From positions 186,001-250,000 of the forward strand of contig NZ_JALIQS010000005.1 in NCBI RefSeq assembly GCF_024704725.1: a stretch of 64,000 nt of DNA, in the 5' to 3' direction. Source of the stretch: Shinella sp. CPCC 101442. Lineage in GTDB: Bacteria > Pseudomonadota > Alphaproteobacteria > Rhizobiales > Rhizobiaceae. The stretch's first letter is position 1. Each line of letters begins with the position of its first letter. The position numbers and the translations under genes were made by a program. The notes beneath the pieces are model-generated. The model was not told the DNA's origin. It saw only the letters and a program-made list of their open reading frames with translations, and did no database searches. Shown here in pieces: positions 22,394-47,689 of the stretch.

Positions 22394-22560
22394 TTACGCT
22401 GATGAACCTGCCCGCATTGTTTCGATAATCGCGTGCAAGCCGGCTGATAGATATTTGCGTGCCGGATAGTACAGGTAAAGCCACTCTTCCGGCATGATCC
22501 AATCGTCGAGGCAGCTTATCAGCCGATTGCTCTCGATGAATGGGGTCGGAACAAGGTCTG
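22394..22560 (-). pseudogene. LysR-type regulator C-terminal remnant
   Basis: Read on the minus strand, about 55 codons ending in TAA at 22394-22396 give a typical LysR-type end: DLVPTPFIESNRL, then LDDWIMPEEWLYLYYPARK and an alanine-rich helix. The homology stops abruptly at about 22560, where the Tn3-type resolvase region begins. The rest of the gene was removed by that insertion or a later deletion, so this point marks the left junction of the mobile island. Confidence 0.6.
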
Positions 22561-22574
22561 TTCAAAATCGTACG

Positions 22575-23168
22575 CTAAGGTCGAACCGATCGTGAACTTT
22601 CATCACGAACCCGCATGATGGTCTGCCGGCTGGTCGCGAATTTCCTAGCGATGGCTGAAACGCTCATCCCTACCGCAAGATCTTCGCGGACATCCTGCTT
22701 CTGTTTTTCGCTGAGCGTCGAGGGGCGGCCGAGGGCTTTTCCTTCCGACTTGGCTCGCTTGAGGCCGGATTGGGTCCGCTCGATCAGCAAATCCCGCTCG
22801 AACTGGGCGACGGCATTGAGCACGTTCATGGCCATGGTGCCTGCCGAGCTGGTCAGATCAGCGCCGCCGAGTGCGAGGCAATAGACCCTCACGCCCATTT
22901 CGGCCAGGGTTCTGACCGTGGTGCTGACGTCGGTCGCATCACGGCCGAGGCGGTCGAGTTTGGTCACGATCAGAATGTCGCCGGACTCCAGCTTGTCCAT
23001 GAGCTGGGAAAAGCCGCGGCGCTGCGCAATGGCGGTGCTGCCGGAAACTGTCTCGGTGACGATCCGGCGCGGCTCGACGTGGAAACCGGCGGCTTCGATT
23101 TCCTGGAGTTGGTTCTCGGTGGTTTGCCCAGTCGTGGAGACGCGGACATAGGCAAAGGTGCGGGGCAT
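22575..23168 (-). CDS. tnpR: Tn3-family resolvase (small serine recombinase)
   Basis: About 197 aa. The catalytic Ser lies in FAYVRVSTTGQT; the central DRLGRDATDV and ERDLLIERTQSGL blocks and the C-terminal SVSAIARKFATSRQTIMRV helix-turn-helix are complete. The ATG at 23168 is preferred to the TTG at 23177. It is divergent from the tnpA remnant. It appears intact although its transposase is dead, so it could still resolve cointegrates at a matching res site. Confidence 0.88.
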   Translation of the reverse strand: MPRTFAYVRVSTTGQTTENQLQEIEAAGFHVEPRRIVTETVSGSTAIAQRRGFSQLMDKLESGDILIVTKLDRLGRDATDVSTTVRTLAEMGVRVYCLALGGADLTSSAGTMAMNVLNAVAQFERDLLIERTQSGLKRAKSEGKALGRPSTLSEKQKQDVREDLAVGMSVSAIARKFATSRQTIMRVRDESSRSVRP

Positions 23169-23177
23169 AAGGCTCAA

Positions 23178-23323
23178 ATTCGTCTGAATAGGCTGTCCAG
23201 AATACCCAATCTGTTCGAAATACTGTCAAGATAATTTGTGGACAGGGTGTTTTGCCCTGTACGCAATCGTCCGTTTCCGGACAGAGGATTGGCTACTCGC
23301 GTACATTGTAAGGAGTAAAAACG
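23178..23323 (+). other. Probable res/promoter region between tnpR and tnpA
   Basis: The divergent gap holds several short inverted motifs expected of a res site. CTGTCCA and TGGACAG form the outer arms of one about 53-bp interval, and there is a GTCCG..CGGAC hairpin at about 23269-23282. An AAGGAG ribosome site precedes the tnpA GTG start. The exact subsites were not delimited. Confidence 0.5.
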
Positions 23324-26205
23324 GTGGCCCGGCGAACGCTTCTCAAGGCTCATGATCGTCAGGAGCTTTTCGACATTCCGACCGACGAAGACGGCCTGAT
23401 CCGCCATTGTTCCCTATCGCCGGCCGATCGGCTGGAAATCGAGCTTCGCGGGCGCAAGCACAACCAGCTCGGCTTTGCGGTGCAGCTCTGCCTGATGCGC
23501 TTATCCCGGCCGGACGCTCATGCCGAACGAGATCCCTCCGGGTGCGATGCTCAATTATGTCGCCGAGTAGATCGACGTAGACCCCAGGCTATTTGCGCTC
23601 TACGCCCGCAGAGAGGAAACTCGCCGTGATCACACCGCACACCTGCTGCGCTACCTCGAATTAAAAAGTCCAACGGGCAAGGACCGCCGCGCGGCGCTGC
23701 TGGCAGCTATCAAGGCAGCTTCGACAACAGATAAGGGGGCGGCGATCGCAAAGGCAATCATTGCCACCTACCGGGAACGCCGGGTTCTGTTGCCAGTGGC
23801 GAACATGATCGAACGCATGGGGCTGGCAGCGCGCGCGCTGCTGCCCGCCATCGCGCTGAGAGCGTCCTGATCTCGGATATCGACCCGGAAAAGCTCGAAG
23901 CCCTCGACGCCCTGCTGAACGTTGATCCGGCGATCGGACAGACGCGCTTTCATTGGCTGCGTTCTGCTCCCGACGCCCCCGGAGCGGGCAACCTGGTTGG
24001 AATGACGGAACGTATCGCATTCCTGCGCTCGCTCGGGATTGATCCTCGTTTGCAGGCCCGCGTCCCCTCTGGACGATGGGACCAGACGGTCCGAGAGGGG
24101 GATGCAGCACCGGCCTGGCTTGCCGGAGACTTCGGTGCCAGTCGTCGGCGCGCCACGATCGTGGTGCAGGTCATCAAACTCGGCCAGAAGCTCACCGACG
24201 ATGCGGTGACCATGTTCATCAAGCTGATGGGCTGGCTGTTCTCCCAGGCGAACAACCGGAAAAAGCAGCGTCACATGAACACCCGCATGGAAACGTCCAG
24301 GGCGTTGCGGCTGTTCCTCGACACAATCGTCGCCCTGCAGACTGCCCATGATGCCGATGAAGATGCGATCGAGACGGTAAACCGGCATGTCGGCTGGCAC
24401 CGGCTGCTGCAGATCAAACCCGGTCTTGAGGCGATGGTGAAGAGCGCCGACGCTTCGCCGCTAATTTTGGTGGCCGAGCAACATGGAAACATCCGCAAGT
24501 TCGCGGGGCCTTCCTTCAGGCATTCACGTTCCGCTCGCGCCGCCGGCACGATCCACTGCTTGCGGCGGTCGCGACCCTGAAAATGCTCTATGTGGAAGGA
24601 CGTCGTATCCTGCCGGATCGTGTGCCGGTCGGCCATCTGGGAGCGACCGAAAGGAAACTGATCTTCGACGATGGCAAGCCGGATCGGCGGCTTTATGAAA
24701 TCGCCACGTTCGCTCATTTACGGGACCGGCTGCATTCGCGGGATGTGTGGGTCGAGGGCAGCCGGTCGTTCCGGCCGATAGACGAAGATCTCATGCCGAA
24801 GCCAACCTTTGTCGTTCTGAAGGGGCAAGATCAGCTCGGCCTCGGTGTCCAGAGCGACGGTGCGGCCTGGCTCGCCGAGGTCCGGGAGATGATGGACGTC
24901 AATCTCAAAAGGCTGGCCTGGCGCGCCCGTTTCGGCAAGCTCGATGGCGTCAGGATGGAAAACGGCACGTTGATCGTGACGCCGCATACCAGTGACGTTC
25001 CCGCCGCGGCGGAAGCCCTCAATGCCGAAATCACGGAGATGTATTCTCTGGTCGAGGTGCCCGATCTTCTGCGGGAAGTGCATGAATGGACCGGATTTGC
25101 CGACCAGTTCACCCATGTCGGGACAGGAGATGCGCCGCTGAACATATCCGCCATGCTGGCCGGCGTGCTTGCCGACGGCACGAATCTCGGCCCGAAACGC
25201 ATGGCGGGGGCGTCGAAGGGGATCAGCGCCCACCAGATCGGCTGGATGCGCAGCTTCCATGCCCGCTCCGAAACCTATCGGGCCGCACAGGCCTGCGTCA
25301 CCGACGCCCATACCCGCCATCCGCATTCGCAAATCTGGGGCGACGGAACGACAGCCATCATCCGATGGGCAATTCTTCCGCGCCAGTGACCGGGCCGCCA
25401 GCCGCAGCGACATCAACCTGCATTATGGCAGTGAGCCGGGCTCGAAGTTCTACAGCGGGCTTTCCGACCAATACGGCTATTACAGCATCCTGCCGATTAG
25501 CCCGACCGAAAGCGAGGCTGTCTATGTGCTCGACGGCCTGTTCGACCACGCCACGATTCTGGAGATCGAGGAGCTGTTTACCGATACCGGCGGCGCCAGC
25601 GATCATGTTTTTGCGCTGTTCTGCCTAATCGGCAAGCGCTTTGCACCCCGACTTCGCGATATCAAGGACCGGAAACTGCACACCTTCGAGAAGGCCGATA
25701 GCTATCCGGCGCTGGCAAATCATATCGGCGTGCCGATCAACACTGCCCTCATCATGGAACATTGGGACGAACTCCTGCGCCTTGCCGCGTCGATCACGAC
25801 GCGCACCGTCGCGCCGTCGGCGATCCTCAAGAAGTTCTCCGCGTCGTCGAAATCCAGCGATCTGGCCAAAGCGTTACGCGAGCTCGGCCGCATCGAGCGC
25901 ACCCTGTTCATGATCGAGTGGTATTCCAGCCCGGCGCTACGCCGGCGTTGCCAGGCCGGGCTCAACAAGGGCGAGGCCGCTCACAAGCTCAAACGCGCCG
26001 TCTTTTTCCACGAGCGCGGCGAGATCCGTGATCGCTCCTTTGACAGTCAGGCCTTCCGAGCTTCAGGCCTCAACCTGGCGGTCAGCACCATCGTCCATTG
26101 GAACACCGTCTATCTCAGCCGGGCAAGGACCCATCTGCGACAGCAGGGCCGGAATACTCCCGACGCGTTGCTGAAACACGTCTCCCCGCTCAGTTGGGAC
26201 AATTA
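23324..26205 (+). pseudogene. tnpA: Tn3-family transposase TnpA, multiply frameshifted and 3'-truncated
   Basis: Starts normally at GTG (MARRTLLKAHDRQELFD) after a good ribosome site. Homology then continues almost to the end but changes frame near 23518, hits an in-frame TAG at 23568-23570, and shifts again near 23840, 24508 and 25355. The catalytic core is recognisable: HPHSQIWGDGTTA, SDGQFFRASDRAA and NKGEAAHKLKRAVFFHERGEI. After KHVSPLSW at about 26200 the expected end (EHINLTGDY in relatives) is replaced by unrelated sequence, so the element's right end is missing. Non-functional. Confidence 0.85.
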
Positions 26206-26334
26206 TTTCCCGGCATCCGCACGTCAACCCTGCCGATGCGGGTTACTGAGGCGTTTGCCCAGATATATCTATTGTAGCGAGGTTAGAAAGTTGATTGCCG
26301 CCAACTTATTATCCTCATAGGTCTTAGCTTCAGC

Positions 26335-28551
26335 TTATTCCCTCGTAACGCGCAATGCGACTCCCGGCAGCGCTTCAATATCCAGACGTTCCCGCAAGGT
26401 TACGAGCGTCATCAATTCCCATGACAGAAATCCATCGAATTTCGCGATGTTCGGCTTCGAAATGCCCTCCATCAGCGCTTCCGTCGATGGAAGGTCACCC
26501 TGGGCGAACGCCTTCAGATAGCAATCGACACCGTCGACATTGCACTCCTGCAGTTCAATCACGAATGCAAACGGTGCTGTCTTGAACTCCCGGCTCAGAA
26601 AGGCCAGAGCGAGCGTATTAAGCTTTTTGGTCCCCACCCACGGGAAAACGATGACCCCATCGCCGTACGGGATGACGGATTGCTTCTCAAGCTGGAGTTT
26701 GCGAAAGGTCTCGCGCGCACCCACTAGCAGTTCTCCGGCCACGCGGTCGATGTAAGGATACTCTTCGTCCGAGGAGAGGACCTGGCGCATCTTTTCGGCG
26801 ATGTGATCATGGATATTACCGCCGTTCCCACTAAATCTTGGGGGCTTTCCGCCACGGTTTGGCCGAACGGAAATCACGCGCGTGGCATCGTCGACAGAGA
26901 GTACCAGCCACCGACGTCCTGCGAAGATCAACGTCTCACCGTTCTTGATTGCGGAATCCAGGGGATAGTTTCCGAGGATCCGCGCTTCATGCATGACCCT
27001 ATATTCGCGCTCGGTTGCGAAGACCGGATAGAATTCATGGGATTCAGTGATTTTCTCGCCGTTCCCCCCGATCATCAAAAGTCCGTCAGGAGACTGCTCG
27101 ATAAGCTGGTTTTCTGGCGACGCCATGCATCTAAGCAAGTCGGCAAAGAGCCCCTTGCCGACCGATCTAAATGGTCCGCGTTCGCATAGAATGCGATAGG
27201 CAATATGTGGCCGGATACCGGTTTTCTGCAAGATCAGCGCGAGGATCTGATGGAGGAGAGTGGATAGATGGAAACCCGAAGGTTCAGGCGGTTCGCACCA
27301 GCCCTCCTTGAGGCACTCGATCATAGCAATTGATTGTATGAGGCCGAGGTTGAGGCGATCCACGGGATGTTGGCCGCGTCCGGGCTCTCTTTCGATGACA
27401 AAGAGTCTCATGATCGCCGGGTTGCCCGCGCGCCGACCAGACCTGCCAAGACGCTGTCGAAGGGATGACACCGTAAAGCCCGGGCCGATCTGCGCGACGC
27501 TTTCCACGTCGCCAATGTCGATGCCCAGTTCAAGCGTGGTGGTCGCGACGGCGGTTGTCGGTCTCGGATCGTCTCTCAGCCGAATTTCCAGGTCCTCGCG
27601 CTCCGAGCGCGACAGACTGCCATGATGCGGGAAGAATTCATTCGGAAGATTGCTTTCTTCGCACATGGTGCGCAGCCGATCGGCGTATAGTTCGACCCGC
27701 TGCCTGGAGCCAGCAAACAGGAGGTTTCTGCTTCCCCGAAGAAACCTGGAGAGGTCGTACGCGACGCGGGGTGGGATGCCATGGCTTTCGGTTTCTCCCG
27801 GTTCCGTTTCTTGTCCTTCTCCGTCTACATCCGGCGATGGCTCGTCCTCGATATAGCCCCTTATCTGGAGCTTTAAGCCGTTGCCTTCATCATTTCCATG
27901 CACGAGCGTGACGGATGCGCCCTCACCCGGCCGCATGGCTTCTGCGGCAAGCCCCATGTCGCCCAATGTTGCCGATAGACCAACCCGGTCGATGCGTTCC
28001 CGCCCACATTCGATCTCGATCCGGTTCAGGATCGATTGGAGCTGCATACCTCGCTCCGTTCCGATGAAGGCGTGGAGTTCGTCGATGACGACCGCCTCCA
28101 GCGCGGAAAACAGAAAGCGGATTTCACGCCCCCGCCGGACAAGGAGTGCCTCGAGGGATTCCGGTGTGATCAGCACAATTCCGCTTGGACTTTTACGTGC
28201 CCGTGCCTTGGCATCGGCCGACACGTCACCGTGCCATTTGTGCAGCCCAACATCGCAGGCGTCGCAAAGACTCTCGAGGCGGCGGTGCTGGTCGTTGAGA
28301 AGCGCCTTTAATGGGCTGACGTAGAGAATAGCAAAGCCGTCACGGTTCTGTTTTGCAAGGACGCGGGTTAGGAGGGGGAGGATCGCGGCCTCGGTCTTTC
28401 CCGCTGCCGTGCGAGCGGAAATGACCACGTCTCCACCAGAGAGGACGGCCGGGATGGCCTTTTCCTGAACGTCCCGAAGTCTCTGCCATTTCTTCTGCCA
28501 TATCCAGCGCTGGATGGGCTGGGCGAGACGGTCAAATCCGGAAGGTTGCAA
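26335..28551 (-). CDS. sngC: Lhr-like DEAD/DEAH-box helicase of a Shango-type defence system
   Basis: About 738 aa superfamily 2 helicase. Motif I is ARTAAGKTEAA, Ia YVSPLKALLNDQ, II VIDELHAF, III LSATLGD, and VI RLGRSGRRAGN. The C-terminal third is a family-specific domain with a GEKITESHEFYPVFA segment. Start is TTG at 28551, 20 bases inside the end of the ATPase gene; no later ATG precedes motif I. Last gene of the three-gene operon. In Shango the helicase is essential with the TerB protein and the ATPase (recalled). BREX type 2 BrxHI is a related alternative, but no PglW/X/Y/Z genes are here. Confidence 0.82.
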   Translation of the reverse strand: MQPSGFDRLAQPIQRWIWQKKWQRLRDVQEKAIPAVLSGGDVVISARTAAGKTEAAILPLLTRVLAKQNRDGFAILYVSPLKALLNDQHRRLESLCDACDVGLHKWHGDVSADAKARARKSPSGIVLITPESLEALLVRRGREIRFLFSALEAVVIDELHAFIGTERGMQLQSILNRIEIECGRERIDRVGLSATLGDMGLAAEAMRPGEGASVTLVHGNDEGNGLKLQIRGYIEDEPSPDVDGEGQETEPGETESHGIPPRVAYDLSRFLRGSRNLLFAGSRQRVELYADRLRTMCEESNLPNEFFPHHGSLSRSEREDLEIRLRDDPRPTTAVATTTLELGIDIGDVESVAQIGPGFTVSSLRQRLGRSGRRAGNPAIMRLFVIEREPGRGQHPVDRLNLGLIQSIAMIECLKEGWCEPPEPSGFHLSTLLHQILALILQKTGIRPHIAYRILCERGPFRSVGKGLFADLLRCMASPENQLIEQSPDGLLMIGGNGEKITESHEFYPVFATEREYRVMHEARILGNYPLDSAIKNGETLIFAGRRWLVLSVDDATRVISVRPNRGGKPPRFSGNGGNIHDHIAEKMRQVLSSDEEYPYIDRVAGELLVGARETFRKLQLEKQSVIPYGDGVIVFPWVGTKKLNTLALAFLSREFKTAPFAFVIELQECNVDGVDCYLKAFAQGDLPSTEALMEGISKPNIAKFDGFLSWELMTLVTLRERLDIEALPGVALRVTRE

Positions 28552-29854
28552 GTTCGTCGTCCGGATTGTCGGCTTCGGAGATAACGTCGTGGTCTTGGGG
28601 CCCTTGCTGGTCTTCCGCGACGTTCACCTGCTTCAGGAAATCCTGCCAACCGACGCCCGGGTTCTGCTCCAGGACCGCCAGGAGATCGACGAAAGCCTTG
28701 ACGGTGTTTCTCGGTGTTCTGAAATAGGAGTCGCCGATCGTGTTCGAGCAATGGTCCATGAACGCGACAAGAGCCTCGTCGGGGACCAGGTGCCTTTCGG
28801 CTTCGCCAGCCGCAAACACATCCCGCAACCGTTCGAGGAGGTGGTAAAGCTCTTCAGGCGTCAGGCTTGGGAGATTTAGGACCGGCCCAGAGTAGTCCGC
28901 TATACCGTTCACGGCGAACGTATTCTCGGCAAGTCGGCTTTGAAGCGCCTGATAGGAGTAAAGACCACGCCGCGTATCGAGCAGGAATTCGGGAGTGCCG
29001 CCCATGATGAAACCGATGCCTTCGGTCGTGCCTTGGAGAACATCGTTCAGGATGCGCAGGATTTGCTCGTAGTTCTGGTTGCGCGCTTGAGAGCTCTGGA
29101 GTTTGTATAGGTTCACGAGTTCATCGAGACAGACGAGAAGTCCGCCAAACCCTGCGATCCTGACAAAACGCGCAAGCAATCTTAGGCCATCGTAGAACGA
29201 AGTGTCGTCGATGATCGTTCGAACGCCGAGGTCCTGGCGAGCCTCCGTTTTCGTCGTATACTCTCCCCGCAACCAGCGAAGTGCCGCGTCCTGCAGGGTG
29301 CCGTTCCCTTCTTCGTATCCCCGGGCATATGCCGCAATCACGGTCGCAAAGTCGTAACCGCCGACCATCTCGCGTATGTCGCCAAGGCCGTCCCGTATAG
29401 CGTTTTCCACGGAGACGCCTCTAGCGGCCGCGCGCTCTGTAGCCTTCTGAATGTAGCTCTCGAGGATGTTTCTGAGCGCCCCGCCATCCGGGGCCGTTCG
29501 CGTCGAGAGACTTCGGACGAGTTCGGCGTAGAGCGTCCTTGCTTGGCCGTTTGAGGCGTGGATACGACGGTCGGGAGAAAGATCAGCCTGGCAGACAGCG
29601 AGCTTACTCTGGAGAGCGATCTGCCGCACGAGAAAGAGGAAGAACGTTTTCCCCGCGCCGTAAGCGCCAATTACAAACCGAATGCTCGCCCCACCATCGC
29701 CCACTCGACGGATATCGCTGATCATGGCTTCGATCTCGCGCTGCCGCCCGACTTGGATGTGTTGAAGGCCCAATCGCGGCACAACACCTGCCCGCAGGGC
29801 GCTAATAATGGTGTCTCGGTCACGCGGTCGGATGACGGGTGGCTTCGTCGTCAT
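28532..29854 (-). CDS. sngB: AAA-type ATPase (BrxD/DUF2791-like) of a Shango-type defence system
   Basis: About 440 aa. The N-terminal part has VGRQREIEAM, then Walker A GAYGAGKTFF; Walker B is LLVCLDELVNL, and a sensor-like FIMGGTPEFLLD follows. This is the DUF2791/BrxD class of P-loop ATPase. It overlaps the TerB gene by four bases (ATGA) and the helicase by 20 bases, so the three proteins are made together. It probably forms a complex with the helicase on DNA (inference). Confidence 0.82.
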   Translation of the reverse strand: MTTKPPVIRPRDRDTIISALRAGVVPRLGLQHIQVGRQREIEAMISDIRRVGDGGASIRFVIGAYGAGKTFFLFLVRQIALQSKLAVCQADLSPDRRIHASNGQARTLYAELVRSLSTRTAPDGGALRNILESYIQKATERAAARGVSVENAIRDGLGDIREMVGGYDFATVIAAYARGYEEGNGTLQDAALRWLRGEYTTKTEARQDLGVRTIIDDTSFYDGLRLLARFVRIAGFGGLLVCLDELVNLYKLQSSQARNQNYEQILRILNDVLQGTTEGIGFIMGGTPEFLLDTRRGLYSYQALQSRLAENTFAVNGIADYSGPVLNLPSLTPEELYHLLERLRDVFAAGEAERHLVPDEALVAFMDHCSNTIGDSYFRTPRNTVKAFVDLLAVLEQNPGVGWQDFLKQVNVAEDQQGPQDHDVISEADNPDDELATFRI

Positions 29855-32800
29855 GCTGATATGCCTTCCATTGTGGCGTTGGATATCGCCGCTTCGGGCG
29901 AGGGGAGTAGATGCAGATTTATCTCGACAGGATCGTCGCCTTCGATGAGCAACTCGTCAAAACGATCCATTGCCCAGTCGTTGACGGCCTCACGAGCAGC
30001 ACCCGGCATCAGGCCTGCATCACGCGCAAGATGTTCGAAATCCGCGGCCGACCACGATGAACGCAGGCGTAGCTCGTTCAAAAGAGCGCCATATCGTTGT
30101 TCCAGGCCTTCGAAGCTTTCCCCTTCGGAGAGCGCGGCCTCTATGTCTACGGCGACGGGTTCAAATGTCGTGGGGTCATCATCGGCGAATATGTCAGCAA
30201 GCACATTCGCGGTCACACTCGTTTCGGACCGGATGCTCTGAAGCCTGGAGAGATCGATCCGGGTCGTAAGTTTGTCGCTGGGCGAACCATCCTGGGTCGT
30301 CGCCGATGTCCTGTCTGCCGTAGCGGTCGGGGAATTCGGCCCGGCATGAAGCCGATCGTAAAGCACCTGATTTCCAAGTCCCATTCGCTTGAAAATGAGT
30401 TCCAGCTTTCGAACCTCTGCTGCGTGAAGGTTGCCGTCAGCGGATGCAACGCAAATAAGCTCGTCGGCCACGGACATTTTGCTGTCGGGGCTGACGTCTT
30501 TCAGGCGCTTCATCCAATCTTCAAGACGGTCCGGATAAACTTCGTTCACCCGCACTTCGGCTCGCAGGCGGTTGCGTTCGTCGCTCGTCAGCGACGGCTC
30601 ACGCTCGATGCGTTGAATGAGTGCGTCCCTCTCGCGTTCATCGAAATGGCCGTCAGCATGCCCGATAATAAGGCCAAGCATTACGGCAAGTTGCACATGA
30701 CGAAATCGGTCGGGGGGTTCGGCTGTTGCCTCGGCGTCAATAGGGAACACCAAGGCCGGGTCGTTCCAGCCAAGCGTCTTTGTTGCGAACCCAGGGTCGA
30801 ACGTTACGCCAAACCCGAAAGCTGCAAGGAGTTGAGAGACTTCTCTTAGTTTCGGCTTGGTTGGAGGAGTCCCGATATCCGCGCCTGCAATTCGGGCAAC
30901 ATCTTCCACGGTTATTATCGCCGCATCACGTGACAGGATTGCGAACTGATCAAGGGGATTACCTTCGAGAAGGCCAGCTTGCTGCATGCGCAGCGGTTTC
31001 GGCAGTTTCGATACCGCCATGAGGTTTGGTGTCAGACCCGGCAGCCTGCCGAGCGTGCGGCTGTAATCGTCCAGGGCGTCCGAGCAGGCGTCGAAGATTC
31101 GTCGAGCGACCCCAATTGGCTGGGAGTGGTGAGCGATGTCCGGAATGTTGCCACCCAAGACGTCGATATCGACTTCGAACGATCCGCTGCATGCCTTGTA
31201 ATGCTTCTGAAGAGGCTTTGCGCGAGCCGCCTTATAGCAAAAGCCTGAAGGGTATTCGGCCAGCATCTGCTGCGCGAAAAGTTGTCGCATGAGTTCCGGC
31301 GCGCGCCTTGCAGGTGTTCTGGCGCGTGTCTCGGGATGCGTCACGGCAAACCGATAAAGCAGATCGGGCTCCATCGCACGGCCATCCCGAACTCGGACAC
31401 CGAGCGCAATCTTGATCGCAGTTGGCACCTCGTACCCGTTCGGCTCCACGCGAGCGAGGAATTGAGCAGATGGCTCCCCGCTCTTCAACTCGACCGCAGT
31501 CAGGAGTTCGGTTGCGTAACGATTGAATGAGTGGTTGCTGCCATAAACGTCAAGGAGACGTTTGACCTCGGCTGCGACGACTGCCGCATCGGAAGTGCTC
31601 CTTTCCAGCACCAATCGGCGTTCAAGACCATAAAAGTAGAGGAAGACGTAACCGATATACGCGCTTGGATCGGAGCGGTCTCCGGCAAGCCAGTCTAGAT
31701 AGCTTCGGCGAGCCTCAGGCGTGATCGAGGAATACGACGGCCAATAGCCCATCGTACGCCCCTCCCGATCTCCCCATTGCGCGACCCGCAAGTCCGGATT
31801 GATCAGACAGTTTTCCGCCTCATGGCGACGGCCTTGCTTGTCAAGGGATTTCCCAACGTAGATCAGGCCTTTCGATATCTTGACGCCTGCAACAATGACC
31901 TCAGAACCTTGCTCCCTCCATCCACTGGACGACACACAGGTGGCAGGAGGGTCTGCTCGTGTATCGAAATGCTGCCGTTGAGCTTCGTCATACCTTTTTC
32001 TTGAAGCTTCAGCGTTGTCGATTACCCACTGCTTTACGGACGCGGCGTGCGCAGTGAGAGTTGTCGCGTTGGTGGCGCTCGCCGTCGGCCGTTCCTCGAT
32101 CGGGCTTGGGATGTCATTATTCGGGGTAAATACTGGAGGTGGGCGCTTCGCGGCGTCGTCCTGCTCAAAGCGGATTGCTGTAATCGGTTTTGCGGGCGAG
32201 GGGGTTTGCTCAGGCCGCTTCGGTAGTGGGGTGCCGCCCGAACGGCCAATAGGTTCTCTCGATACTTGGCTCGCGCTTCGAGAACTATCGCGAGTGTTCT
32301 CCGTTGCTGCCAAATCCAGTTGCGGGGGCGACCACTCAGCTTTTGCTTTGGCCTTCTTTCGATGACGCGCGAAAATGAATACTCCGAGTATGAGCGCGGC
32401 TATCACATAGATGCCTCTCACTTCGCTGTCGTTGGCTGAGGGCGGGGAGCTGTCATTCGTTCCCACGTCTAACGCAGGTGTGAGTGTCACCGCCTCAGGC
32501 TTGATGTGGGTTTCGACCGGATCCTGGGTTCTCTCCTTAGATTCTATAGTTTCCGAAGAAACACGGTTGGTCTTTTGGTCGGTTGTCGTCTCGGCGACAG
32601 GTATTGACCTCGCTTCAGGAATGGTTTGCTCACCTACCGGGTCGGTAGTGGGCTTGCTTTTACTGCTCTCCAGACCAGGGTACTCTGGAAAGAGTGCGGA
32701 GGTCGTGTCGTCGTCGATTTTGCCGGTCACGACCAAGCCATGACTTTTCTGAAAGTCCCTAAGAGCCTTGGCGGATTTTTTTCCCCACAGGCCGTCAGCC

Positions 32801-32937
32801 GCTCCCGGGTTGAAACCTCTATTGATCAAGGCTTATTGGATTTCCTTGGGCGTGCGCTCATCGGCTGCCGCCGACGCTGCTGCTAGGACGGCCAGTGCAA
32901 ACACTCCAGTAACCGCGAAAGCCTTGCGCAATTTCAA
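29851..32937 (-). pseudogene. sngA: TerB-domain protein of a Shango-type defence system, interrupted by one in-frame stop
   Basis: From a TTG at 32937 the frame encodes a good signal peptide (LRKAFAVTGVFALAVLAAASAAADE), then meets TAA at 32833-32835. It resumes in the same frame from TTG at 32829 for 992 aa. Numbered from there: peptidoglycan-binding-like domain 1-48 (INRGFNPGAADGLWGKKSAK), Ser/Thr/Pro-rich linker, one membrane span 138-154, TerB-N about 310-520 (VIVAGVKISKGLIYVG), TerB about 717-830 with two metal-type motifs GHADGHFDERE and ASADGNLHAAE, and TerB-C about 858-985. If translation restarts at 32829, a membrane-anchored TerB protein without its secreted leader results; otherwise the gene is dead. 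Confidence 0.75.
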
Positions 32938-33049
32938 TTTTTGCTCATCCCCCGTTGAGGTCAGTATACACGGAGAGCGTGCGCAGCCAAGCCGCTGTTT
33001 CGGTTTGCCTTTTAAGGAGCCGCTTGCTCTTCGTCTTATTGATCGCACA

Positions 33050-33168
33050 ACCTCGTCGCGCGCGATGATCTTGCCGCCCGCGATCGCCAGCGACTGGCAC
33101 CAGGGCAGGCCGGGATCGCCGGTATAGATCCGGCCGTTGGTGAAGCCGAGGTCGACCGTGCCTGAAAA
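33050..33168 (-). pseudogene. Amidohydrolase family N-terminal remnant
   Basis: Some 40 codons on the minus strand read TVDLGFTNGRIYTGDPGLPW, then CQSLAIAGGKIIARDE. This is the N-terminal beta-sandwich start of YtcJ-like amidohydrolases. It is bounded on one side by a tnpA fragment and on the other by the defence operon leader, with no metal-binding part left. It shows that a gene once here was cut from both sides. Confidence 0.55.
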
Positions 33169-33402
33169 GGGCGCGGCCCGCGCCGTTGCTCGCCGTCGTG
33201 CTGAGAGTGCGCTGATCTCTGATCTCGATCCCGAGAAACTCAAAACCCTTGATGCCCTGTTGGCCGTTGATCCAGCAAACGGGCAGACGCGCTTTCACTG
33301 GCTGCGCTCCGCACCCGACGCACCGGGTGCGGAGAATCTGGTCGGGTCGACGGAGCGCATCATGTTCCTGCGCTCGCTCGGGATCGATCCCCGTTTGCAG
33401 GG
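33168..33402 (+). pseudogene. Second Tn3-family tnpA fragment
   Basis: About 78 codons homologous to the part of TnpA at 23830-24060, in the same orientation: ESALISDLDPEKLKTLDALL, GQTRFHWLRSAPDAPG, ERIMFLRSLGIDPRLQ. It stops sharply at 33402. Nucleotide identity to the first copy is only roughly 75-80 percent by eye, so it derives from a different Tn3 relative, not from duplication of the first. Confidence 0.75.
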
Positions 33403-38567: not shown

Positions 38568-39582
38568 TCAGACTGCTTTCGCTACCAACGATACAGCCCC
38601 CCATCCCCTGTGTGCTTTCATGAGCTCGGATTTTGGGTGGAGAAACGGGTCTAGCCAGCTTTCTACAGCGAGGTGCAAGCGCCCTTCATCGTCTCGGCTT
38701 ACCGTTATCGATTTCACTATCTCCCGAATCAGCCGAGACAGTTCTCCCATCTCGTCCAGTAGGTACAACGCCATCTCAAACTTTGGGCGGTGAACTGAAA
38801 TCTTTTCGGCAAACGCTTTGATTGCTGATGGATGTACGGAGATGCTACGGAGTTGAGGGAGAGTTTTGATCTCGTTTTCTAGCTGCGTCCTTTCTTGAGC
38901 TTGCGCTTTGATGCGACTGTCGATTACGCGGCTGTCGCCAATGCCGTCTATAAGCATATCGGTCAGTCGCTCATTATCTTTTTCTATTACAGCCAACCGG
39001 CGGCCAATGTGTTTTCGCCGCGCGTCATCGTCTTCCACTTTTTTATGGAGCGTCGACATGTACGTCTGGGCGTATGCATGAATCTGAGTAGGAGTGGCAA
39101 GTTCGCGTGTAAGGCTGTCAATAGTCAGGACCTATACATCATCTAGATAAAAGGTTTTCGGAGCAGTACAGGCACCGGAATTTACATGTGCTGAACAGCG
39201 CAGCCGCGTTCGTCCGGTCTTGTCCAAACCCGAAACGGCCATTCCAGAGCCGCATGCGCCACACTTCAGAAGGCCAGATAGCAGCCGCTTCGGACGGCGT
39301 TGCGACCCGATCTCCCCGTTATTAATTGACCGACCTGTCAATTGCTGTCGGACGGCCTCGAACAAATGATCTGATATGATTCGTAGTTCGGGTATGCTTG
39401 CGTGTTCCCACTCGCTTGGCGGATTCGACCGGCTGACGCGCCTACCAGTGTCTGGATCTTTGACCATCCGATTTTTATTCCATACAAGGTGGCCAATATA
39501 AATCGGATTTTGCAGTATTCCTGAACCACGTTCAGCCGAACCAATGAGGGTGGACGGGGACCACAGTTTTCCGCGTGGTGAA
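38568..39582 (-). pseudogene. Large serine recombinase, N-terminally truncated and with an internal stop
   Basis: The preserved part begins inside the recombinase domain: SPRGKLWSPSTLIGSAERGS, ILQNPIYIGHLVWNKNRMVK. A zinc ribbon follows (LLKCGACGSGM..RLRCSAH), then a C-terminal coiled-coil (ERLTDMLIDGIGDSRVIDSR). A TAG at 39132-39134 interrupts the frame between ribbon and coil, and the frame then continues unchanged to 38568. The catalytic serine domain is absent because a mini-IS joins at 39579. Not functional as an integrase. Confidence 0.78.
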
Positions 39583-39661
39583 TAGCCCCTAGATTTGCTC
39601 ATGATGCTCTTCTTGCCTCAAAATTAGGAAAGAAGGCGTCTACAAATCTAGGGGCTATTCA
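39579..39661 (-). mobile_element. 83-bp IS3-type mini-element with 19-bp terminal inverted repeats
   Basis: TGAATAGCCCCTAGATTTG at 39579-39597 is the perfect inverse of 39643-39661. The interior, read on the minus strand, holds a purine-rich stretch and ATGAGCAAA, which looks like the start of an IS3-family orfA. This is best explained as an IS3-type element reduced to its left end joined to its right inverted repeat. The ATG at 39602 reads through the repeat into the recombinase frame, making a chimeric frame of 156 codons. No target duplication is visible. Confidence 0.6.
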
Positions 39662-39904: not shown

Positions 39905-42900
39905 TCAGAATTGTTTTCCGGCTCGCACGGTTGCACCGACGGATTTCTGGCCGTCGCCCTCGATATTGAGCAGCAGGCTAGCCTCGAGCATCCAGAAGTC
40001 CAAGGTCTGCATGGCGACACCGGCGGTGAGCGAGCCGTAGAAGCCCGAGCCGTCGAGGCCTGCGTAACCGGCGGTCACGCCCAGCTTCGGTGTCATCGTC
40101 GCGCCGCTCTCCAGCGTGAAGGAGCGTGCGATCTCCGCACCGAGGCTCACCCGGAACTGTTCCGCGTCGAAGCCATCGATATCCAGCTCCTCGCCATCGT
40201 CGTTGTGCACCGTATAGTCGTCGACTTTTTCGTTGAAATAGACGGCCCTGAGCTTCGGCGTCAGCACCGTCGCCTCGCCGATCTGCCACTCACCCTTGAT
40301 GGCCGTGTCGATCATCCAGCGTTGCGTGTCGAACGAACCGTCCCAGAAGGCTGTGTCGATGTCGTTCGCCGAGCCGCCATACAGCAGGCTCGTATCCCAG
40401 AACACGCCCTTGCCGATCTCCAGCGAAGCATAGGGGCCGGCGAGCCAGCCGTTGCCGGTCAGTTCCGAATCCGCGTCGCTCGGATCGGTCATCCGATCGA
40501 GATGGAAGGACAGACCGACCAGCGCCTTGTCCGAGATCAGATAGTCGGCGCCCAGATTGAGCATGGCGAAGCTGCCCCACTTGCCGCCGTTCTGGTCACG
40601 CTTGTGCGCCAGGAAGGCACCGTCGACCCAGACGTTGAAGGCGGAGGAAGCCGCACCTTCAATACCGTCGGCACGATCGCGGGCGGCATCCATCTGCGCA
40701 AGGCTGGTAGAGAAGCTCGCCGTCATGCCGTCTTCCGAAGGCGTCATGCGCGCCGTCACGGTATCCGTCGCCTGCTCCAACTGCCGCCGCTCCTGAAGAC
40801 CCGGCACATGGATGCCATTGGCGATCAGACCCTGGCGCGTCTCCACGAAACCCCGCACGAGCGCGTCGATGTCCTCTGCGACCTGCTGGACGTCGTGATG
40901 GAGATTGTAGGTGACCGTCCCGACATTGGAAGAACCGAGTGCGCTCACCAATCGGTACCCGACCTTTGCCGCGCCGGAGAAGGCGGGGTTCGGGCTGAAC
41001 TGCAGGTACCAGCCGATCGGCTCGCCCACCGGCCCCACCTGGGCGACCTGCCCGCGGATGATCTTCGCCGTGCCGGCATTGGCAGGCTCCACGAAGGTCG
41101 TCTCGGCTGCGGTGAACGGTCCACCGGTTGCACCACCGTTGAGGTAGACATCGGCAGGCGATCCGCCCGCAGGAACGTCCACCACATGGTTCGAGGCCGT
41201 GACCTGACGCGCGGTGACACTCAGCGAATAGGTTGCCGAACCGGTGGCGCCGTTGTTGTCGCGGACCGCGATGCTGAAGGTATAGTTACCTTTGCTCGCT
41301 GCATCGAGCGGACCGGTCAGTTCGCCTGTCGAGACATTCAGCACCATGCCCTTCGGCAGCTTGCCGGAGGCCAGACTGTAGAGCAGCGGCGCCGTGCCGC
41401 CGGTCGCCTTGATCTGCTGATTATAGGCTTCACCCGCCATCGTCTTGCCAAGGTTGCCCGCGGGCGGCGTGAAGGCGAAGATCACGACAGGCACCTTGAC
41501 GACGATCTCATAGGTGGCAGATCCCGTCGCGCCATAGGCATCGGTTGCGGTAACGGTGAAGCCGAAGCTGCCTGCCGCCGACGGCGTCCCGCCGATCGTG
41601 CCCGCTGCTCCATCGAGTGTGAGGCCTGCCGGCAGCGTTCCCGCCGTGACCGCATAGCTGTATGGCGCCGTGCCCTTCGAGGCGGTCAGCGCGCGGCGAT
41701 AGCTCTTGCCGACCGTGCCGCGCGGCAGCGTACCGGCTACCGGCGACAGAACGATCTTCGGAGGCGTCACGATCACGGTCACGGTCGCCGGCGACGACGT
41801 GCCGGATGCATTGGTGGCCGTGTAGGCGAAGCTGTCCGTGCCGGAATAGCCGGCGACGGGTTTGTAGGTGATCGCCTTCTTGGAGGCCGTCGCGGTGCCG
41901 TGCGAGGCGGCCGTCGCAACGGCAACGGACGTCGCGGCCCCGCCAGTGATATTCAGCGTTACCGCCTTGGCCGGCGAATTGGCTGCGACCGTCAGCGTCA
42001 CCGCATTGGCGATAGGCACCTGTCCGCCAATGACGAGGCTGTAGCTTGCCGTGCCCATGGCTCCATGGGTATCCGTTGCGGTGACAGCAAAGGCAAAGTT
42101 GCCCGCCGCCGTCGGCTTTCCGCCGAGCTTGCCCGTCGCGTCATCCAGCGTGAGGCCCGCCGGCAGCGCTCCTGACGTGACCGCATAGCTGTAGGGTGCC
42201 GTGCCCTTGCTGGCCGAGAACGTCTGGTTGTAGGCTCCGCCGACCGTGCCCTCCGGCAGCGCACCCGCCGCGGGCGAGAGCGCAAGCGTTGGTGCCGTCA
42301 CCGTCACGGTGACGGTTGCCGGCGACGACGTGCCAGATGCATTGGTGGCCGTATAGGTGAAACTGTCCGTGCCGGAGTAGCCGGCGGCCGGCTTGTAGGT
42401 GATCTTCTTGCCGGAGGCCGTTGCCGTGCCATGTGCTGCGGCCGAGGCCACCGCAACGGATGTCGCCGTACCACCGGTGATGTTGAGCGTCACCGCTTTG
42501 GCCGATGCATTGGCCGCGACCGTCAGCGTCACCGCATTGGCAACAGGCACCTGTCCGCCGATGGCGAGGCTGTAGCTTGCCAATCCGATCGCGCCATAGG
42601 CATCGGTCGCGGTGACATCAAAGCTGTAGCTCCCGCCCGCCTCAGGCTTTCCCGAAATCTCACCGACAGCGGTCAGCGTCAGGCCGCCCGGCAGCGTGCC
42701 GCTGGTGACGGCATAGCTGTAGGGCGCCGTGCCGTTCGAGGCGGTGAAGGTCAGGCTGTAGGCCGCGCCGGCCGTGCCGGTGGGCAGTGCCCCCGCAGCC
42801 GGCGACAGAGCGATCGTCGGCGCCGTCACGGTCACCGTCACGGTTGCTGGCGAGGATGTGCCGGTCGCATTGGTGGCCGTGTAGGTGAAGCTGTCCGTGC

Positions 42901-45900
42901 CGGAATAACCGGTCGTCGGCGTGTAGGTGATCGTCGTTCCGGAGGCCGTCGCCGTTCCATGCGAGGCCGCCGTCGCCACCGCGACCGTGCTGGCCGCGCC
43001 GCCGGTGATGTTCAGCGCCACCGCCTTCGCCGACGCATTGGCCGCCACCGTCAACGTCACCGCATTGGCGACAGGCACCTGTCCGCCGATGACGAGGCTG
43101 TAACTTGCCACTCCTATCGCGCCATAGGCATCGGTCGCCGTGACATCGAAGCTGTAGCTCCCGCCCGCCTCAGGCGTTCCCGAGATCTCACCGGCAGCGG
43201 TCAGCGTCAGGCCGCTCGGCAGCGTGCCGCTGGTGATGGCATAGCTGTAGGGCGCCGTGCCGTTCGAGGCGGTAAAGGTCTGGCTGTAGACCGTGCCGGC
43301 CGTGCCGGTAGGCAGTGCCCCCGCAGCCGGCGACAGAGCGATCGTCGGCGCCGTCACGGTCACCGTCACGGTTGCTGGCGAGGATGTGCCGGTCGCATTG
43401 GTGGCCGTGTAGGTGAAGCTGTCCGTGCCGGAGTAACCGGTCGTCGGCGTGTAGGTGATCGTCGTTCCGGAGGCCGTCGCCGTGCCATGCGAGGCCGCCG
43501 TCGCCACCGCGACCGTGCTGGCCGCGCCGCCCGTGATATTGAGCGTCACCGGCTGGGCCGACGCATTGGCCGCCACCGTCAACGTCACCGCATTGGCAAT
43601 CGGCAGCTGGGCGCCGATGGCCAGGCTGTAGCTTGCCGTGACCGTGGCGCCATGGGTGTCGGTCGCCGTCACATCGAAGCTGTAGGACCCATCGGCATCG
43701 GGTGTTCCCGAGATATCACCGGTAGCGGTCAGCGTCAGGCCGCTTGGCAGCGTGCCGCTGGTGACGGCATAGCTATAGGGCGCCGTGCCGTTCGAGGCGG
43801 TAAAGGTCTGGCTGTAGGCCGTGCCGGCCGTACCGGCGGGCAGTGCCCCCGCAGCTGGCGAGAGAGCGATCGTCGGCGTGACGATCATCACGGAATAGGC
43901 GTTTGAATTCGAATAGGGACCCTGTCCGGTCGAACTGTCCGTTCCCGTGATCGTGAAGTTGAATGTGCCGCTGGCTGTCGGCGTGCCCGACACGGTACCG
44001 CCCGCCGCCAGCGTGAGGCCGGCGGGAAGCGCGCCCGCGGTAACGGCATAGCTGTAGGGTGCCGTTCCGTCCGCCGCCGTGATGGTCTGGCTGTAGGCAA
44101 GACCTGTCGTTCCGCCCGGCAGAGCACCCGCCGCAGGCGATAGCACGATCGTTGCCGCATCGACGGTCAGTGCATAGGCCTGAGCACCCGTATAGGGGCC
44201 GGATGCCGTCGCGCTGTCGGTTGCGGTGACGGTAAAGTTGTAGGTTCCGCCCCCCGTCGGCGTGCCCGAGATGGAGCCATTGGGATCGAGCGCCAGACCT
44301 GCAGGCAACGATCCGGCCGTGACCGCGAAGGTCACCGGAGCAAGACCGCCCGTGCTGGTCAGCGTCGCACCGTACGGCACGCCGATGCCTGCGTCCGACA
44401 GCGTCGCGGGATTGATGGTGATCGTCGGAGCGCCAATGGTGAGGCTGGCCGAAGCCGTGCTGGTATAGCTGCCGTTTCCGCCCGAACTGTCGGTTGCGGT
44501 GATCACGACCGTGGCATTGCCCGCCACCGTCGGCGTGCCGGAAATGACGCCCGAGCTGCTGATCGACAGGCCGCCAGGCAGGCCTGTGGCCGAGAAATTG
44601 GAATAGGGAGCATTACCGCCGCTGATGCTGACGGCCGCCATCGCGCTGTTATAGGCCTCGCCGACCGTGCCGGTGGCGGCCGGCAGCGTGACCAAGAAGA
44701 CGGGATCGTTCACCGTCACGAAGACCTGGCCGACATTTGAGGTGCCGCCCTGGTTGGTCGCGACATAGTTGAAGACGTCAGTACCGCGGAAACCGACGGG
44801 TGGCGTATAGCTGACAAGACCGGCGCTATCGACGCTGACCGCCGCGCCATAGGACGATGCCCCCACCTGGAAGCCGGTCGGGCTTTCGGTCGCCAGCGCC
44901 GCAAGGCTGAAGGTCGTGGCCGAGGCCGAGCCCGTATTGTAGACGAATCCCGATACCGCCGTGGACGAGACCACCGGCGCCGGCGGCAGCGAGACCGTCA
45001 GTGTCGCCGTCGCATTGGCGGTGTAGGGACCTGCCCCGAGCGAGCTGTCAGTGATGTTGACGCTCACCGTGAAGACGCCGTTGGTATCCGGCATGCCGCT
45101 GATGACGCCGCTGCCGCTGTCGGTCAGGCCTGATGGCAGGCCGCTGATGCTGTTGATCGTGTAGGAGGCCCGACCGCCCGAGACCGTCACCGCAGCGCTG
45201 CCGCCGTTATAGGTCCTGCCGACCGTGGCCGTGGTCGAGGCCAGTGATACCGTAATCGTCGGATTGCCGATCGTAATCGTCACCGTGGCCGGGCTCGACG
45301 TGCCGCCCAGATTGGTGCCCGTGAAGGTGAAACTGTCATTGGCATTGCGGTAGCCGACCGGCGGGGTATAGGTCGCCGTGCCGCTGCTGTCGATGCTGAC
45401 AGAGCCGCCCTGGGCCGTCGTCGCCGAGCCGACCGCATAGCTGGTCGGAGTGTTGGTGACATTGCCCGCCACGCTGATCGACACGCTCGTGTTCGAGCCG
45501 ACATTGTACGGTACGATCGATCCATAGGTGAAGCTGCTGCCCACCGGCGGCGCGACATAGGTGTATTGGTCGGAAGCGCTCGTCGCGCTCGTCCCACCCA
45601 CCGTCGTAACCGTGATGTCGTATGTGCCCGCCGAACTCACCGGCGCCGTCGCCGTGATCTGCGTGTTGCTGTTGATCGTATAGGTCGCGTTCGTCGCCCC
45701 GAACTTCACCGCCCCCGTGCCAGCCGCAGCCGAGAACCCGGTGCCTGTGATGGTAACCGTCGTGCCGCCCGCCGTTGGGCCCGCGGTGGGGGACACCGAC
45801 GTCACCGTCGGCTGGGACACATAGGTATATTGGTCGGCAGCACTCGTTGCGCTCGTACCGCCGACAGTGGTGACGCGGATGTCCACCGTGCCTGCCGAAC

Positions 45901-47347: not shown

Positions 47348-47689
47348 GGCCACGGTACGCCGCTCGCGCTTAGAGCCGGGGAGAGCAGCCATGAAAAGCC
47401 GCGTGGCCGACACAAACCGCCCAAGGCAGGACGCCGGTACCGAGAAAGGCCGCGCGATAACACGCTGAAATGCCGGAGCGGGATTACGATTGGGAAGCGC
47501 GCCCGATGAGGAAAAAAGGCCGCGAAGAGGCTTGAGCAAGCGCGCTAAAATCGCCGAAAACACCAGAAGCAAAGCGCAAATGAGGCTCTCATAGCCGCGC
47601 TTGGAGATAGCGCCGAGGCCTCCCCAGGCTCCAGTTCCCCATGCCCACATCGAAATCGTCCCCCAGCGACGGCATCGCGCCATCAACAA

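Follow-up and report, generated by a model that had tools for sequence, protein, structure and literature searches.

Shango operon of Shinella sp. CPCC 101442 with a predicted wall-binding SngA interrupted by a stop codon

The 64,000-nucleotide stretch of Shinella sp. CPCC 101442 analyzed here (the window) carries, at 26335-32937 on its minus strand, the operon sngA-sngB-sngC of the anti-phage system Shango, a membership that is secure by sequence. The balance of the evidence tips towards its first protein, SngA, being a wall-anchored, trans-envelope form that belongs to a distinct alphaproteobacterial Shango lineage and senses or marks phage entry, with the copy in the window cut by a stop codon. 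As far as literature searches show, a peptidoglycan-binding SngA is new as an architectural variant of Shango: among the papers listed, none has a title or abstract opening on such a domain in SngA or Shango, and a mention in Millman 2022, the first report of Shango from E. coli, is possible. The interest of the locus lies in a testable mechanism, not in the presence of the operon.

The Shango models of PADLOC score highest, and by a wide margin, for all three proteins, which bears out the assignment made in a preliminary description of this DNA. Specifically, SngA is the best match of the first protein (264.7 bits, 7.4e-79), SngB that of the ATPase (581.7 bits, 2.6e-175; BrxD 183.1 bits) and SngC that of the helicase (838.7 bits, 1.3e-252; BrxHI 410.4 bits). 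Pfam matches over cut-off to TerB_N, TerB and TerB_C in SngA, to BrxC_BrxD in SngB and to DEAD and Helicase_C in SngC agree with the TerB-N/TerB/TerB-C protein and the BrxD-like ATPase that had been described, the latter also through its secondary PADLOC match to BrxD. The three minus-strand genes overlap as described, by 4 bases between sngA and sngB (29851-29854) and by 20 between sngB and sngC (28532-28551), and their order of TerB protein, ATPase and helicase equals that of the tested operon of Pseudomonas aeruginosa PA14 in the available text of its report (PMC10250203). The whole genome holds one TerB_C and one BrxC_BrxD match, both in this operon. Two findings had been named in advance as speaking against Shango, a firm assignment to another system and a lack of TerB similarity, and neither was encountered. 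The frames are as follows.

29851-32829, minus strand: main open frame of sngA, 992 amino acids from TTG 32829, with a remnant peptidoglycan-binding domain, a linker, a transmembrane helix and TerB_N-TerB-TerB_C
28532-29854, minus strand: sngB, 440 amino acids, ATPase of the BrxC/BrxD family with the Walker A motif GAYGAGKT
26335-28551, minus strand: sngC, 738 amino acids, superfamily 2 helicase

For the first gene, the described frame and TerB domains stand, but the extent given for it implies a start at TTG 32937 that is broken by a TAA after 34 codons. With that start sngA is not intact; sngB and sngC are open. The earlier description was silent on the stop, on the peptidoglycan-binding domain and on the predicted transmembrane helix of SngA.

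Predicted architecture and distribution of SngA

SngA is predicted, from sequence and structure models, to consist of a signal peptide, a peptidoglycan-binding domain, a linker, a transmembrane helix, a second linker and a cytosolic TerB_N-TerB-TerB_C core. Its parts lie at the following positions.

32963-32990, minus strand: promoter-like site TTGGCT-N16-TATACT
32833-32937, minus strand: 5' piece of sngA, with the TTG start, a putative signal peptide and the beginning of the peptidoglycan-binding domain, ending at the in-frame TAA
32692-32820, minus strand: peptidoglycan-binding domain PF01471 (PG_binding_1), main-frame residues 4-46 (43.0 bits, cut-off 23)
32368-32424, minus strand: predicted transmembrane segment, residues 136-154, followed by an Arg/Lys-rich flank
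31309-31908, minus strand: TerB_N (Pfam, 165.4 bits)
30373-30687, minus strand: TerB (Pfam, 41.9 bits), with Foldseek matches to the TerB-like structures 2ou3 and 2h5n
29902-30264, minus strand: TerB_C (Pfam match)

The TTG at 32937 opens a stretch that, judged by eye, resembles a signal peptide and ends in AxA, a mark of such peptides, and both the start and the signal region align with intact relatives. The peptidoglycan-binding domain is followed by about 85 residues of very low model confidence, read as a disordered linker, then by a helix at residues 135-164, a second low-confidence stretch and a confident TerB core (mean pLDDT 75). Segment 136-154 has a Kyte-Doolittle hydropathy of 2.06, a value reached by 0 of 200 shuffles, and is followed by RHRKKAKAK. 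Under the positive-inside rule a basic flank marks the cytosolic side, and the N-terminus is therefore predicted to lie outside and the TerB core inside. In Foldseek the whole SngA model matched 2ou3 with a probability of 0.99 (E 0.1) and 2h5n with 0.98, its high-probability relatives being TerB-like only; the search returned nothing under E 0.001 and yielded no function for TerB_N or TerB_C. Of the 12 clade relatives aligned upstream of the gene, 9 share GTGTATA at the -10 position; the exceptions are L010, L013 and L015. This conservation is the evidence for a promoter, because the number of promoter-like sites in 26000-33300 is near chance (4 found, 2.8 expected).

The wall-binding module is confined to one lineage. 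Relatives were drawn from the best 80 of 113 loci of a genome collection and from a search of 297 genomes of the order, 11 of which matched, 10 of them other than that of the window. In 72 of the 80 loci the SngA frame was not open at its 5' end, and 12 were dropped as fragmentary or frameshifted (L012, L017, L034, L038, L046, L048, L050, L053, L065, L069, L073, L081), so that the domain scan covered 60 SngA and the window. Among these 61, TerB_N and TerB_C occur in all, TerB in 59 and PG_binding_1 in 16 (the window and 15 loci); no other added N-terminal Pfam module turned up in more than two of them. On a SngB tree of 91 rows, all 16 domain carriers group together in a single clade (22 rows, support 100/100). 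Five label changes were counted on this tree because six clade rows were unlabelled; of these, L012 and the genome of L084 (L094) also encode the domain, and in L014, L017, L018 and L083/L093 the contig ends before its position. The domain is thus present in 18 of 18 clade members with a visible N-terminus, whereas none of the 45 full-length SngA that fall elsewhere on the tree carries it (Fisher 4e-16, relatedness ignored). A profile of 14 clade domains recovers those 14 together with L019 and L023, which were not in it, and none of the 45 outside sequences reaches even E 10. Clade members of named origin are all Alphaproteobacteria (Rhizobium, Agrobacterium, Mesorhizobium, Brucella pecoris, Ciceribacter, Methylobacterium and others), and the Mesorhizobium plasmid pMspAR02c (L102) carries a copy with an open sngA.

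The same profile matches 19 solved sequences at E 0.001, of which 12 are named wall enzymes or wall-binding proteins (SleB, SltB3, SltB2, endolysins, an L,D-transpeptidase and others). A model of one clade domain (L008, 67 residues, pLDDT 80) resembles such wall modules with a Foldseek probability of 1.00 at E 0.03-0.1 (0.03-0.04 for those of SltB2, gp144 and SleB), with nothing under E 0.001. Synonymous sites between the window and its nearest relative, L002, are near saturation, and relative identity alone was used in place of dN/dS. By this measure the peptidoglycan-binding domain is the constrained part, at 64% identity to that of L002 compared with 28% for the adjoining linker, and the spacers diverge. 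The remaining values are 13% as aligned over residues 136-165, which may stem from the alignment there, 34% for the cytosolic linker, 80% for TerB_N, 82% for TerB and 68% for the last 167 residues. In all 17 clade sequences a net-basic flank follows the hydrophobic segment, and 15 of the 17 segments are equaled by no more than 12 of 200 shuffles.

Taken together, these data favor a model in which the signal peptide would export the peptidoglycan-binding domain, a flexible linker would span the periplasm to the single transmembrane helix and a second flexible linker would hold the TerB core in the cytosol. Wall-bound SngA might then mark or sense the places where a phage perturbs the envelope and its DNA enters, and the TerB core might recruit or license the SngB ATPase and the SngC helicase against incoming DNA at these sites.

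Several observations weigh against this model. As PG_binding_1 is absent from all 45 full-length SngA outside the clade, wall binding is not needed for Shango generally. Of the 19 solved matches, five are the protease CtpB, one is an effector protein and one is OpcA, and metalloproteinase prodomains share the fold of the L008 model, at lower rank; the fold by itself is no proof of ligand, and peptidoglycan binding is a prediction. The hydropathy threshold of 1.6 that was applied outside the clade is reached by only 12 of the 17 segments within it (L003, L004, L006, L007 and L019 lie below), the segments of L019 and L094 are equaled by as many as 21 and 32 of 200 shuffles, and 20 of the 45 outside SngA show no N-terminal transmembrane segment by the same rule. 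PF01471 could, furthermore, serve as a passive anchor instead of a sensor.

The last point leads to the main rival, an ordinary Shango that acts on DNA in the cytosol and whose wall-binding module is a passive anchor or an inherited fusion without a role in defense. We regard this as a substantial possibility, if short of an even chance. It fits the 45 outside sequences that do without the domain, and N-terminal fusions of other kinds occur sporadically, the pattern that a tolerant N-terminus would give; on the other hand, the domain is kept in every visible clade member and is better conserved than the linker beside it.

Beyond the clade, the remaining 25 of the 45 full-length SngA have an N-terminal hydrophobic helix by the hydropathy rule; among them are an apparent signal peptide in L037, a multi-pass domain in L042 and, in L078, a helix that is probably amphipathic. 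Three more, L030, L067 and L074, narrowly miss the rule, and several other outside sequences begin, by eye, with amphipathic stretches such as MLNWLKKL. Membrane attachment of SngA thus looks common and its N-terminal modules look exchangeable. LprI, HTH, DUF805 and FHA occur in one SngA each and Sel1 in two; HTH, DUF805, FHA and Sel1 seem, by eye, to sit in the N-termini of L030, L042, L080, L028 and L029. In an alphaproteobacterial metagenome-assembled genome (L037, 3067-5964), SngA has an apparent signal peptide and LprI, a lysozyme inhibitor, before its hydrophobic segment. One of 37 proteins scanned matches LprI and is presumed to be that of L037, a possible second exported module on SngA.

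Interruption of sngA in the window and in relatives

Counted from TTG 32937, codon 35 of sngA is an in-frame TAA (32833-32835) that falls in helix 1 of the wall-binding domain; the whole-genome profile search also reports "1 TAA" inside the SngA match. In the main frame the PF01471 match picks up only at profile position 15 of 57, so that the domain is incomplete there and its beginning sits around the stop or upstream of it. A TTG two codons past the TAA opens the frame of 992 codons. The stop splits the signal peptide from the rest, and a product restarted at this TTG should therefore be without export and without a complete wall-binding domain. As such, the copy in the window has probably lost its wall tether, and the operon is probably impaired or reduced to a cytosolic function. 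None of the 12 aligned clade relatives has a stop at the same place, and intact copies exist; the window strain appears to hold a naturally occurring copy from which the exported part is missing. The frames of SngB, SngC and the TerB core are open, and no other stop interrupts the three frames.

A further breakdown, in which the operon would be a decaying remnant without function and the TAA in sngA might also weaken sngB, the start of which overlaps the end of sngA (ATGA), is a serious prospect, although we hold it to be the minority one. Besides the TAA at codon 35 and the transposon wreckage on both flanks, the record of the relatives speaks for it. Within the clade, sngA is broken in 4 of 21 copies (the 18 visible ones and the Mesorhizobium records L102, L104 and L105), each time by a break that parts the N-terminus from the whole TerB core or the greater part of it. 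These four are the window; L012, whose reading frame changes after the wall-binding domain and ahead of the transmembrane segment, with an open sngB; a Mesorhizobium huakuii plasmid (L104), with an IS256 within sngA, an open sngB and a sngC that is broken too; and Mesorhizobium sp. L-2-11 (L105), with the first half of sngA missing near a Tn3 element and an open sngB. In a wider set assessed by script, the core is broken in 7 of 71 sngA, 1 of 90 sngB and 1 of 71 sngC (p 0.06 against sngC, 0.02 against sngB and 0.004 against both pooled, 2 of 161), and L098 has two stops inside its SngA match. The tendency of sngA to break more often than sngB or sngC is suggestive, limited by draft assemblies and shared ancestry. 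Against decay stand the 992 sngA codons past the stop, the wholly open sngB and sngC with intact catalytic motifs, and the TTG start two codons after the stop.

On plasmid MesoLjLa2 (L105, 784-6857), a Tn3 transposase and a recombinase lie just upstream of the half sngA, as in the Tn3-Shango neighborhood of the window; Tn3 is a candidate cause of this sngA loss.

The stop also bears on the preferred reading, in which the window holds a cut copy of a wall-anchored SngA, as the TAA could be an error of sequencing or assembly, with a single assembly of the strain analyzed. The strain would then have an intact wall-anchored Shango, an explanation that we think unlikely. The three frames contain no further stop and the 12 aligned relatives have none at this place, two points in its favor; the assembly is, however, rated 100% complete with 0.23% contamination, figures that are silent on single bases.

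SngB, SngC and the genomic setting

The Walker A motif of SngB is intact; the search pattern used for Walker B matched nothing, and no solved relative was found by sequence at E 0.01. In SngC, Walker A, DELH and QRLGRSGR are all intact. The helicase had been described as Lhr-like; its nearest solved relatives by sequence are YprA and the chains 5v9x and 7lhl, which are labelled only as ATP-dependent DNA helicase and are taken to be Lhr.

A likeness to the BrxD/BrxHI pair without Pgl genes had also been pointed out, and it holds for the two models and for PglZ. It is nevertheless highly improbable that the operon derives from BREX, be it as a remnant of type 2 or as an accessory pair (BrxD, BrxHI) joined by a TerB protein, since the Shango models outscore those of BrxD and BrxHI (582 vs 183, 839 vs 410), a SngA relative stands upstream of SngB in 80 of 80 collection loci, and PglZ (PF08665), whose absence excludes BREX, has no match at E 0.001 in the whole 6.1 Mb assembly. 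As a control, the same search was positive in 2 of 14 other genomes. The PglZ phosphatase is a core component of BREX.

A SngC relative accompanies SngB in 73 of the 80 loci. Seven of 92 loci, mostly cyanobacterial, have no SngC relative at E 1e-5 (L034, L048, L053, L056, L058, L059, L062). L058 stops right after sngB, but others continue for about 3 to 6 kb past it, and two-gene SngA-SngB forms may therefore exist.

The Tn3-family debris reported at the borders of the operon was recovered on both sides.

22541-26203, plus strand: left Tn3-family remnant, with a left end, tnpR and a tnpA that is spread over several frames and breaks off near codon 959 of 991
22575-23177, minus strand: tnpR in the left remnant, open
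33173-33401, plus strand: right Tn3-family remnant, 229 bases of another tnpA copy, at 79% identity to its left counterpart

Plasmids of Rhizobium and Shinella carry elements with about 89% identity to the left remnant, whose right end was not found; sngC ends about 130 bases beyond position 26203. A composite transposon was considered and set aside: transposition of the operon between the two pieces is not shown, because they have the same orientation, are only 79% identical and the left one lacks its right end. A tRNA-anchored island was likewise rejected, with no tRNA at 15000-42000. The base composition of the operon (57.5% GC vs 61.3% for the window) and its third codon positions (GC3 0.60-0.68 vs 0.81-0.84 for two neighboring genes) suggest that it was horizontally acquired.

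The setting had been called typical of a defense island, a claim that is rejected for the ten neighbors scanned, which gave no convincing defense gene. Four of them matched a PADLOC model at E 0.01, three weakly and one through an oxidoreductase model on a luciferase-like monooxygenase (2.4e-21). By Pfam, the neighbors comprise a pirin, an F420/NADP oxidoreductase, luciferase-like and flavodoxin-like proteins, a LysR regulator, a glyoxalase, a GMC oxidoreductase and a recombinase piece. The last lies beyond the right Tn3 remnant, at 38568-39602 on the minus strand, where a recombinase and zinc ribbon piece (39132-39602) adjoins a frame without a Pfam match, and is another trace of mobile DNA. 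Next to it, at 39905-47689 on the minus strand, a frame of 2594 residues with many Ig-like repeats and an autotransporter-like end is, by eye, a probable giant surface protein.

Plasmids carry relatives more widely: 666 records have a SngA relative at E<=1e-30, of which 446 are from Klebsiella and 144 from Salmonella, and Shango may be a common plasmid cargo in enterobacteria. Among the matches listed, the TerB part of enterobacterial plasmid SngA is about 28-32% identical, and a Klebsiella example (L106, NZ_CP018424.1, 166027-179982) holds the TerB-ATPase-helicase set near repA.

Envelope surveillance and comparison with known systems

Among the papers listed by the literature search, no title or abstract opening reports a mechanism for Shango. 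A 2026 review, in the text available, places Shango among systems of unknown mechanism (PMC12926258); this is weak evidence, because that row also includes Hachiman, a system for which a mechanism has been reported (PMC12278908). The architecture described here suggests that Shango may watch the cell envelope. A broader version of this idea, which we regard as doubtful, is that Shango is at heart an envelope-breach sensor: SngA would be widely membrane-attached and, in the one alphaproteobacterial lineage, would have gained the peptidoglycan-binding module as a periplasmic antenna, convergent with ZorB, that reports wall damage or phage tail penetration through the transmembrane helix and TerB to a BREX-like ATPase-helicase pair destroying the entering DNA. 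If so, the breaks in the window, L012, L104 and L105 would be natural switch-off variants of a costly sensor.

Compared with Shango of PA14 and E. coli, the operon has the same three protein families in the same order, and the PADLOC models match SngB and SngC almost from end to end and SngA over its TerB part (PMC10250203, in its available text). Compared via the profile, the SngA model (528 positions) covers only residues 279-975, whereas SngA of the window adds about 280 residues with the peptidoglycan-binding domain and the transmembrane helix, and its gene carries a stop codon. With BREX type 2 the operon shares proteins that match the BrxD and BrxHI models, but it has a TerB protein in place and its genome gave no PglZ match. 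The iSTAND NTPase conflict systems (PMC7159879) likewise join an NTPase conflict system to wall-associating domains behind a transmembrane segment; they use other NTPases and domains, and TerB and DUF2791 are absent from the main text of that paper.

The closest parallel of plan, not of kinship, is Zorya, which also combines an envelope-spanning component bearing a periplasmic peptidoglycan-binding domain with cytosolic effectors. No Zorya model is among the PADLOC matches listed for 13 window proteins (for sngC, 25 of 47 families), and no genome-wide Zorya search was made. According to the available text of PMC11890865, the domain of ZorB binds peptidoglycan and is needed for defense; it is Pal-like, and ZorB forms an ion-driven motor with ZorA, whereas SngA of the window has PF01471, one predicted transmembrane helix and TerB domains. 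The wall-binding SngA lineage thereby raises a direct question, namely whether Shango acts at the site of DNA entry, as proposed for Zorya, and the intact operons in Rhizobium and Mesorhizobium permit a clean deletion of the domain.

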